NCBI RefSeq assembly: GCF_010119205.1 | Contig: NZ_WRXM01000001.1 | Span: 744,001-808,000, forward strand | Source of the DNA: Haloarcula limicola | Lineage (GTDB): Archaea; Halobacteriota; Halobacteria; Halobacteriales; Haloarculaceae | Reading direction: 5' to 3' | DNA: 64,000 bases | Shown: piece after piece, positions 16,333 through 18,708 of the stretch | Numbering within the stretch: position 1 is the first letter of the stretch | Layout of the letters: each line of letters begins with the position of its first letter | Translations under genes and position numbers: made by a program | Notes under the pieces: generated by a model | Databases searched by the model: none | The model's input: only the letters and a program-made list of their open reading frames with translations | What the model was told of the DNA's origin: nothing

Positions 16333-17799
16333 TCAATCCGGCCCGGCCCGGAACTGCCGCTCGACCCAGTTCGTGCTGTCGAGCGCCTCGATACTCGCCT
16401 GCAGGCGGCCGAGTCTGTCGCGGCGGTCGCGCTCGTCGAGTTCGAGGGCTCGTTCGAGCGCGTCGGCGATCTCGGCGATGTCGTGTGGGTTGACGGTGAG
16501 CGCGCCGTCGAGCTGCGTCGCCGCGCCGGCCAGTTCGCTCAGGACGAGCGCGCCGTCGCCGTCGACGCAGGCCGTCGGATACTCGTGGGCGACGAGGTTC
16601 ATCCCGTCGCGGTGGGGTGTCACGAGTGCCACGTCGGCCACCCGGTAGAGTCCGGCGAGCGTCTCGGCGGAGAGTCGCCGCTCCGTGTAGACGGCGGGGT
16701 GCCAGTCGTCGGTGCCGTACCGCTCGTTGATGCGCTGCATCTCGGCGACCACGTCCTGTCGGTACCGGCGGTAATCGGCGATCCCCTCGCGGGTCCGACT
16801 GGCCTTCTGGACGTACGTGAACGCCCCCCGGAGGTCCGGGCGGCGTTCCCAGAGGTGGTCGAGCGCGGCGATGCGTTCGGGAATCCCCTTCGAGTAGTCG
16901 AGCCGTTCGACGCCGAGGACGACGGGAATCGACGGGTCCGGCACCGTATCGCCGAGCATCTGCCGGCGCACGGCGTCAGTATCCGACGCCTCGGCGCGGC
17001 TGCGGACGCCGTCCACGTCGATGCCGAGCGGGTTTGCCACCGCTCGCGTCTCCGTGCCCTCGTAGCGGACCACGCCGTCGTCGAGGTCGACCGTCGCATC
17101 GGGGACGGTGGCCTCGACACAGCGACAGAAGTGGTCGGCGTCGGGTTCCGTATGGAAGCCGACGACGTCACAGGCCAGCAGGCCGTCGAGGACCGCTTCC
17201 CCCCGGGGACAGTGGTCGAACACCGTCGGCGCGGGCCACGGGATATGCCAGAAGTGATGCAGCGTCGCGTCGGGTCGCGCCGCCCGCACGCGACGGGGGG
17301 CCAATGCGAAGTGGTAGTCCTGGAACCAGACGGTGTCTTCGGGGTCGGTCACCTCTCGAACGGCCTCGGCGAACCGTTCGTTGACCGCCCGGTACTGCTC
17401 CCAGTACGTCGGCTTCGCCCAGATCCGGCCGGACTCTTCGTGGCACAGCGGCCAGAGGACCTGATTGGCGTAGCCGTGGTAGTAGCCCTCGATCTCCGCC
17501 TCGGAGAGGGGGACTCGCTTGAGGTCGTAGGACTCCTCGCCGGGCGGCACCGCCACGATGCCCTCGTCGGCGACGGCCATGTCGGCGTCGCCGCTGGCCC
17601 AGGCGACCCACGTCCCGCCGAGCGAGCGCATCAGCGGGTCGAGCGCGCTCGTCACGCCGCCCGTCGCCGTCGTGACCGCGACGTCGTCCGTCGTGATCGC
17701 GCCCTCGACCGGGTCGGCCGTCCACTCGTGGCTGTACGGCTGACGGTTCGAGACCACGACCAGCGACTCGGGAAGCGCGTCGGCACTCGACTGGCTCAT
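16333..17799 (-). CDS. otsA: Trehalose-6-phosphate synthase
   Basis: A 488-residue GT20 glycosyltransferase making trehalose 6-phosphate from UDP-glucose (or another NDP-glucose) and glucose 6-phosphate. Family blocks are VWFQDYHFALAPRRVRA, HFWHIPWPAP, VLGVERLDYSKGIPERIAAL and VTPHRDGMNLVAHEY. Trehalose is an osmolyte and stress solute in some haloarchaea. No trehalose-6-phosphate phosphatase gene lies next to it. The start could be 17799 (MSQSS) or the in-frame ATG at 17808. Confidence 0.92.
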   Translation of the reverse strand: MSQSSADALPESLVVVSNRQPYSHEWTADPVEGAITTDDVAVTTATGGVTSALDPLMRSLGGTWVAWASGDADMAVADEGIVAVPPGEESYDLKRVPLSEAEIEGYYHGYANQVLWPLCHEESGRIWAKPTYWEQYRAVNERFAEAVREVTDPEDTVWFQDYHFALAPRRVRAARPDATLHHFWHIPWPAPTVFDHCPRGEAVLDGLLACDVVGFHTEPDADHFCRCVEATVPDATVDLDDGVVRYEGTETRAVANPLGIDVDGVRSRAEASDTDAVRRQMLGDTVPDPSIPVVLGVERLDYSKGIPERIAALDHLWERRPDLRGAFTYVQKASRTREGIADYRRYRQDVVAEMQRINERYGTDDWHPAVYTERRLSAETLAGLYRVADVALVTPHRDGMNLVAHEYPTACVDGDGALVLSELAGAATQLDGALTVNPHDIAEIADALERALELDERDRRDRLGRLQASIEALDSTNWVERQFRAGPD

Positions 17800-17891
17800 C
17801 GCTCTCACGTTCGTCCGTGGCCGTCTTAGGGCTATCGCGGCGATGAGAACAAGTGGCGAATGGGCGTCAAGCAGGTGGCAGTAAGAGAAAG

Positions 17892-17898
17892 CTTATAC
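17892..17898 (+). promoter_or_regulatory. Upstream TATA-like element before the mptE leader hairpin
   Basis: CTTATAC is a good TATA match. The usual spacing predicts transcription starting near 17922, just before the stem-loop at 17925-17972. Confidence 0.45.
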
Positions 17899-17924
17899 CG
17901 CAGGGGTCGAAATACGGGCGTGAA

Positions 17925-17972
17925 AGCCGAAAGGGCACCCGGGTAGGGGTACACGGACGTGCCATTTCGGCT
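17925..17972 (+). ncRNA. Stem-loop RNA candidate upstream of mptE
   Basis: The left arm 17925-17938 (AGCCGAAAGGGCAC) pairs with the right arm 17959-17972 (GTGCCATTTCGGCT), giving 8 plus 5 base pairs around one G-A mismatch and a 20-nt loop. A TATA-like box at 17892-17898 would start transcription at its 5' edge. It could be a small RNA, a 5' leader element or a DNA operator. Confidence 0.4.
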
Positions 17973-17980
17973 CAATCCGG

Positions 17981-17986
17981 TTTATC
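17981..17986 (+). promoter_or_regulatory. Proximal TATA box of mptE
   Basis: TTTATC is centred 29 nt before the ATG at 18013 and predicts a leaderless mptE mRNA. It lies directly after the hairpin at 17925-17972. Confidence 0.5.
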
Positions 17987-18012
17987 TGGGCGCTACGCTC
18001 GCAGTACCAACT

Positions 18013-18708
18013 ATGCAATTCGACACGTGGGAACCGGTGTACGAAGCGATCCTCGCCGACTTCGGCTATCCGCGCGACGGCGACGAGACCGCCCGAGACG
18101 CGCTCGGCGAACTGCTGCGGGAAACCGACACCTACCGACCGGAAGGCGTGGGATTCGACGGGAAAACGGTCGCTATCGCCGGTGCGGGTCCGTCGCTCGA
18201 AGCCGAGGCCGACCGAGCCGACGAGGCCGACGTCGTCGTCGCCGCCTCGGTGGCCGCCGACCGCCTCCGAGACGCCAGCGTCGCCGTCGACGCGATGGTG
18301 ACCGACCTCGATAAGAACCCCGAGACCGGCCGCGACCTCACGCGGGCGGGGACGCCCGTGTTCGTCCACGCTCACGGCGACAACGTCTCCGCGCTCGAAG
18401 AGCACGTTCCGACCTACGACGCCGCCTTCGTCGTGCCGACGACGCAGGCCGCACCCACCGAGGCGGTCCACGACTTCGGCGGGTTCACCGACGGCGACCG
18501 GGCCGCGTTCGCCGCCGATCACTTCGGGGCCGAGCGGTTGACGTTCCTCGGGTGGAACTTCGACGACCCGGACGTCTCCCCGGAGAAACGCCGCAAGCTC
18601 GGCTGGGCCGAGCGGCTGCTGTACTGGCTCGAACGCCGCCGCGACGAACGCTTCTCGGTCCTCGACGGGCGGCGGACCGACATCGACCCGGTAGTCAGTC
18701 CGCGGTAG
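18013..18708 (+). CDS. mptE: 6-hydroxymethyl-7,8-dihydropterin diphosphokinase, archaeal MptE type
   Basis: A 231-residue DUF115-family enzyme that replaces FolK in archaea, adding pyrophosphate to 6-hydroxymethyl-dihydropterin for folate or methanopterin synthesis. Key segments are KTVAIAGAGPSLEAEADRA (about 52-70), AMVTDLDKNPET (about 95-107), FVHAHGDNV and LTFLGWNFDD. The order matches MptE. folP and folA lie 4-6 kb downstream on the other strand, which supports a folate role. Two promoters and a hairpin precede it. Confidence 0.88.
   Translation: MQFDTWEPVYEAILADFGYPRDGDETARDALGELLRETDTYRPEGVGFDGKTVAIAGAGPSLEAEADRADEADVVVAASVAADRLRDASVAVDAMVTDLDKNPETGRDLTRAGTPVFVHAHGDNVSALEEHVPTYDAAFVVPTTQAAPTEAVHDFGGFTDGDRAAFAADHFGAERLTFLGWNFDDPDVSPEKRRKLGWAERLLYWLERRRDERFSVLDGRRTDIDPVVSPR

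Follow-up and report, generated by a model that had tools for sequence, protein, structure and literature searches.

A candidate structured RNA with its own predicted promoter upstream of mptE in haloarchaea

Directly upstream of mptE, which encodes 6-hydroxymethyl-7,8-dihydropterin pyrophosphokinase (18013-18708, + strand; PF01973 MptE-like, E = 4.8e-16; nearest solved structure PDB 8sd5, E = 5.4e-23), the genome of Haloarcula limicola carries a hairpin that is real and no chance fold. All coordinates refer to the window, by which we mean the whole stretch of 64,000 nucleotides of contig NZ_WRXM01000001.1 that was analysed. The reading that we prefer, and regard as an evenly balanced proposition, is that the hairpin belongs to a new structured RNA with its own promoter, which would form the 5′ leader or a promoter-proximal part of mptE transcripts and would control mptE in cis.

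The initial annotation had described a stem, a mismatch, a 20-nt loop and two TATA-like boxes at this site, and direct reading of the letters agreed with it at every coordinate. On the + strand, the lower stem (stem P1) pairs AGCCGAAA (17925-17932) with TTTCGGCT (17965-17972), the mismatch G17933/A17964 separates it from an upper stem (stem P2) of GGCAC (17934-17938) and GTGCC (17959-17963), and the 20-nt loop spans 17939-17958. In the fold prediction this loop is itself structured, with CCG/CGG pairs and GUA/UAC pairs around a GGGG tetraloop, so that the hairpin ends in the apex GGGTAGGGGTAC (17941-17952), a GUA-GGGG-UAC tetraloop hairpin; the 3′ strands of both stems are supported by direct reading, fold and covariation alike. 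The 71 nt at 17915-17985 fold with -30.5 kcal/mol (z = -3.0, equalled by 2 of 200 shuffles), and the longer 17922-18030, taken whole, is unremarkable (z = -1.5, equalled by 13 shuffles). To compare relatives, we collected the mptE loci of the best 80 of 268 named relatives and added the window's own. Of these 81 loci, 72 show the hairpin core in the 400 nt ahead of mptE; for L074, one of the other nine, the upstream sequence comprises just 106 nt. The apex GGGUAGGGGUAC, like the tetraloop hairpin, is invariant in 65 of the 72 hairpin loci, and it varies slightly in seven.

A near-constant promoter precedes the hairpin in these loci. Promoter P1 of the window consists of a BRE-like element, AGAGAAAG (17884-17891, + strand), and the TATA box CTTATAC (17892-17898, + strand); CTTAT lies upstream in 72/72 hairpin loci, and in 55/72 it is preceded by AGAGAAAG or AGAGAAAA. 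The distance from the TATA box to the first G of the stem is 34-35 nt in 64/72 loci, where the stem start was set by a simple rule and some of the outliers may be artefacts. From this spacing, transcription is predicted to start a few bases before the stem, which in the window would give a start and a 5′ lead, GTGAA, at 17920-17924 (+ strand); a stem-adjacent TGGA or TGAA recurs in relatives.

Beyond the hairpin lies a second TATA-like box, TTTATC (17981-17986, + strand), probably serving a leaderless mptE mRNA that begins at the ATG at 18013. Past the hairpin, 63 of the 72 loci have an A/T box, which in 24 of the 72 stands 24-39 nt before the mptE ATG, a distance like that of leaderless genes. 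In the Natrialbaceae and in Haloarcula loci with longer gaps the second box is kept and mptE starts further downstream. In two Halorussus loci (L060 and L083) the mptE ATG falls about 15 nt past the hairpin, which leaves no room for a second promoter, so that transcription of mptE would there pass through the hairpin or come from folP. The leaderless mptE promoter proposed in the initial annotation is plausible, given the 24 loci with leaderless-like spacing, and not universal, given the two Halorussus loci. A bacterial-type scan of 17800-18100 found no terminator-like site. A further inverted repeat that surrounds the second TATA-like box looked attractive by eye and was rejected, as its swap test was weak (74 of 10,000 permutations reach it, with kinship uncorrected).

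Since conservation of letters alone could reflect a DNA site as well as an RNA, the stems were examined for compensatory change. The covariation alignment took 82 sources to 68 sequences (45 distinct) and 18 modelled pairs; the nine hairpin-less loci were dropped, as were L050, L061, L093, L096 and L108, which gave the weakest or no match to R1, a covariance model made from 18 sequences chosen for good alignment and hence biased to that type, and a threshold excluded antisense shadows of the hairpin from the rows. Upstream of mptE in haloarchaea, where the initial annotation had looked to covarying stem positions as a check on its hairpin, 12 of the 18 pairs have changed on both sides, against 5.9 +/- 1.0 after shuffling and with none of 500 shuffles reaching 12, although for four of the 12 the evidence comes from just one row, and fitting to the model makes the alignment lean towards the structure. 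The 12 include 6 of the 7 modelled pairs of stem P1 (three of them in one row only) and 4 of the 5 pairs of stem P2. Paired cells make up 91.8% of the alignment against 81.4 +/- 0.7 in shuffles, and the covariation score is 0.321 against 0.143, neither value being reached in 500 shuffles; further pair types number 27 against 21.8 (reached by 2/500), and controls in which the pairing was slid score far lower, with 0-7 pairs. Compensatory changes in the stems thus exceed both the shuffled and the slid controls, the pattern that a conserved structured RNA would leave.

An alignment-independent strand-swap test on 48 distinct sequences gave the same answer: native strand pairs fold at -29.6 kcal/mol and permuted ones at -23.6 +/- 0.5, a difference matched by 0 of 10,000 permutations, with kinship not fully corrected either here or in the covariation shuffles. 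Among the 48 5′ strands, 13 find no better partner than their own 3′ strand, and the others have 1 to 14 better ones, as expected among kin. Folded singly, all 43 distinct sequences listed give one hairpin with the core at its tip, three of them with a 7-nt loop in place of the GGGG loop. The upper stem is swapped between families (GGCAC/GUGCC, GCCUCC/GGAGGC, CCCCG/CGGGG) while the tip stays constant. RNAalifold, run on a 39-row MAFFT alignment (A1), returned a different structure of seven pairs without covariation; we rejected it because helices of unequal length are misaligned in A1, with P2 out of register, and because the 43 single folds agree. What the initial annotation had called a strong stem-loop is accordingly beyond chance by covariation, by the strand-swap test and by its conservation across the order.

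R1 matches 184 of 243 genomes of the order (173 of the 205 of good quality), and stem, apex and TATA box, far from being unconserved in relatives, which would have told against the initial annotation, are kept with covariation in 56 of the 77 genera sampled. In a draw across the phylum, a second model (R2), built from the 68-row alignment, matched 41 of 246 genomes, all 41 of them within the order. Six of the 59 genomes without an R1 match show no mptE (completeness 58-78%), and for the remaining 53 we read the 140 nt upstream of the mptE match: 36 have the folP stop within 46 nt of it, ten have neither the RNA nor an adjacent folP, one (G105) is masked there, and six carry diverged copies of the hairpin (G129, G156, G178, G194, G199 and G213). 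In three of these last, which belong to one genus (G156, G194 and G199; loci L319, L338 and L341), GGAG replaces the GGGG loop, and both stems are altered yet complementary by eye.

As a rule a genome holds one copy of the RNA. Of the 163 genomes that match a pattern of TATA box plus core, 161 do so exactly once; a second match in G230 was discarded by eye, as promoter and stem context are absent. A search of eight genomes at a looser limit gave second matches that are antisense shadows or weak (E 0.09 to 0.9; the one inspected, in G076, locus L126, is spurious by eye), with the exception of a copy in G229 that is taken up below. Viral records yielded no R1 match in the 80 loci listed by a loose pattern and nothing with two tighter patterns, and phage records held no relevant match. 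Among plasmid records, a Natrinema megaplasmid carries one folP-RNA-mptE block, and Rhizobium gave a short stray match.

In 100 of the 100 genomes that have both positions among the matches listed, the RNA starts under 500 nt ahead of mptE and on its strand; the usual order is folP, RNA, mptE. folP is found upstream on the same strand in 56 of the 72 hairpin loci (in one of them 1.1 kb off), and in 38 of those 56 its stop codon falls 56-61 nt ahead of the core, which puts the beginning of promoter P1 directly at that stop codon. In the window, the slot that folP fills in many relatives is occupied by a divergent gene for a glycosyltransferase of family 20, of the trehalose-phosphate synthase type (16333-17808, - strand; PF00982, E = 2e-110), and 8 of the 13 other Haloarcula-type loci likewise have a divergent homologue of it upstream. 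In fourteen Haloarcula-type loci and two from Halobiforma (L066 and L091) no folP was found in the 1.5 to 3 kb of upstream sequence covered, and in all of these the RNA is still at mptE. Where the RNA is missing, folP tends to abut mptE: it does so in 36 of 46 readable loci at the level of the order, and in all eight named hairpin-less loci with enough upstream sequence the gap between the two genes is -3 to 51 nt. On an mptE tree of 130 rows, built by a quick method, the RNA state changes about ten times, with three well-supported independent pairs. A link between loss of the RNA and abutment of folP is suggestive only, being not significant on the tree, and the correlation is in part trivial because deletion of the RNA itself joins the genes.

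Taken with the fold, this arrangement leads us to the cis-acting leader set out above. RNA polymerase would start a few bases ahead of the stem, and the 5′ end of the RNA would then be a stem-loop of about 50 nt, made up of the lower stem, a small internal loop, the upper stem and a GGGUA-GGGG-UAC apex. Such a hairpin would set the amount of MptE in cis, most likely through a protein that binds the apex; binding of this kind would account for an RNA that occurs at one gene and combines an invariant loop with variable stems. Action in cis is favoured by the linkage to a single gene, by the presence of the RNA at mptE in loci without a nearby folP and by the Halorussus layout. Against it, the second TATA-like box in 63/72 loci means that the main mptE mRNA may exclude the hairpin. 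Gene-specific mRNA leaders that bind proteins serve autogenous control, for example of ribosomal proteins, and the hairpin resembles them in being one structured RNA at one gene with a conserved loop on variable stems; it differs in that the downstream protein is a pterin enzyme, that a second TATA-like box usually follows the RNA and that the binding partner is hypothetical. A bolder form of the proposal holds that this would be the first described archaeal RNA leader to regulate folate (pterin) synthesis, with the GGGG apex bound by MptE or a pterin, feedback on mptE, great age within the haloarchaea and loss where mptE joins the folP operon; we think this combination rather unlikely.

The G229 copy lies away from mptE. 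This second, diverged copy (C29:835874-835925, minus strand; L120:1501-1552) has a TATA box of its own and a compensated lower stem, GUUGGA/UCCAAC, and is followed by a U-rich stretch and then by a same-strand ORF of 133 aa with no Pfam, PHROG or phage match. It is divergent to a TBP-like gene, in a stretch (L128; G229:C29:828000-840969) that also holds an MCM helicase, DNA methyltransferases, an integrase-like ORF and a phage-family ORF of unknown function. We read this stretch, from its gene content, as an integrative element, and the copy points to a unit that is able to move and may be self-sufficient.

The second TATA-like box and this mobile copy together keep a live rival in play, namely an independent sRNA gene of about 50-75 nt whose product acts in trans, with mptE merely downstream under its own leaderless promoter. 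We consider this possible, if on balance doubtful. A precise, private TATA box would suit it, as would the second box past the hairpin in 63/72 loci and a free copy in G229 that brings its own TATA, compensated stem and U-rich tail to an integrative element. A trans-acting RNA would not, however, need to stay at mptE in 100/100 genomes with both positions among the matches listed, nor in Haloarcula-type loci that have no folP nearby, and even the mobile copy precedes a same-strand ORF. Nor do targets stand out: complements of the apex are not enriched in mptE or its leader, and the four found elsewhere in the window's own genome (one inside a 912-aa ORF; two of the other three intergenic by eye) look like chance beside two hits of a control pattern.

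That the leader senses a folate precursor, as the initial annotation had ventured, found no specific support, and we judge a riboswitch that senses a pterin or folate compound and controls mptE quite unlikely. Its linkage to a pterin-pathway gene (again 100/100 genomes with both positions among the matches listed) and its conserved apex on covarying stems are what such a switch would show. Riboswitches usually, if not of necessity, recur ahead of several genes of a pathway. However, none of the copies seen stands at a folate gene other than mptE, with one match in 161/163 pattern-positive genomes; conservation is mostly confined to the tip, no switching partner is visible, the hairpin is small for a ligand pocket, and Rfam gives no match. 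Its restriction to one gene makes the RNA more readily seen as a gene-specific leader, perhaps bound by a protein, than as a general folate riboswitch. Tetrahydrofolate riboswitches are bacterial, larger and found at several genes; the hairpin shares with them a place ahead of a folate-pathway gene, and differs in being archaeal, smaller, limited to one gene and without an Rfam match.

A DNA element, an operator or cruciform governing the second promoter with no function as RNA, would be very improbable. The hairpin does sit a few bases ahead of the second TATA-like box, both in the window itself and in the majority of short-gap loci. An operator, however, has no need of stems that exchange their letters from family to family and still pair, what stays invariant is the tip, which is not palindromic, and the spacing from TATA box to stem is near-fixed at the distance from promoter to transcript. 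These points likewise disfavour the repressor site that the initial annotation had entertained, and an RNA is far better supported by the comparisons than a DNA site; its other suggestion, a small stable RNA or leader, is upheld as far as sequence goes by the conservation of stem, apex and TATA box and by the covariation.

Least credible is a leaderless micro-ORF (GTG ... TAG) whose stop codon lies in the loop and which would serve as a translational attenuator: 39 of 63 distinct sequences have a start codon within 33 nt of the loop UAG and in its frame, and start codons 20-33 nt before that triplet favour frame 0 (41/63, with 5 and 16 for the other two frames), but the frame is absent in 24 of the 63, four of which have CAG for UAG, Halobacterium loci are by eye among those frame-shifted by stem length, and the codons follow base pairing rather than a peptide (by eye).

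Rfam 15 has no match up to E = 10 in 17700-18200 of the window, nor up to E = 0.1 in the loci of six relatives. Box C/D and H/ACA guide RNAs are small stable RNAs of archaea, and the hairpin is like them in being small and archaeal; by eye, the RUGAUGA and CUGA boxes of box C/D RNAs are absent from 17920-17985, and in the window a 1x1 mismatch stands where the H/ACA pocket would be expected and CAAUCC, with no ACA, follows the stem. A literature search that left published sRNA tables, start-site lists and supplements outside its reach found no paper on the hairpin RNA, which may stand unnamed in a published sRNA table. Short intergenic sRNAs with their own BRE/TATA promoters are described in Haloferax volcanii (PMC4983044, PMC6490895), and the hairpin RNA is, like them, short, intergenic and equipped with a BRE/TATA promoter. 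It stands apart by its covarying fold and its conservation across the order; sRNA132, for one, is said to be confined to Haloferax (PMC6560208). Two intergenic sRNAs that are alike in Halobacterium and Haloferax, HVO_2908s and H3.2, are mentioned in PMC10927574, and either may correspond to the hairpin RNA. Judged against Rfam and the papers searched, we call the hairpin a new RNA family that belongs to a known general kind and has a candidate function.

Roughly three in four of the order's sampled genomes carry the RNA, which is tied to one folate-pathway gene and short enough to dissect. Copies are present in Haloferax (L102), Haloarcula (L039) and Halobacterium (L061), genera with laboratory genetics. 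To our knowledge, structured regulatory RNAs are few in archaea; if the RNA does control mptE, it would offer a direct route to RNA-based control of folate synthesis in archaea, and if it acts in trans, it would be an unusually widely conserved haloarchaeal sRNA.

Several smaller features of the mptE upstream region deserve mention. In the window, AGTACCAACT stands at 18003-18012, just ahead of the mptE ATG, and AGCGACAGCT is found immediately 5′ of the mptE ATG in several haloarchaea (for example L033, L036 and L106, the last of which is without a clear second TATA box). In Haloarcula loci whose mptE start lies further downstream, a close form of AGCGACAGCT keeps its distance to the TATA box, as judged by eye. 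The mptE match of one genome of the window's genus (L031, G005) has a single in-frame TGA and is a pseudogene or a sequencing error. In Natrialba sp. SSL1 the long region upstream of mptE has about 4.9 copies of a 34-nt tandem repeat just before the start codon (L059:2585-2750); the same inspection of L069 gave no such repeat.
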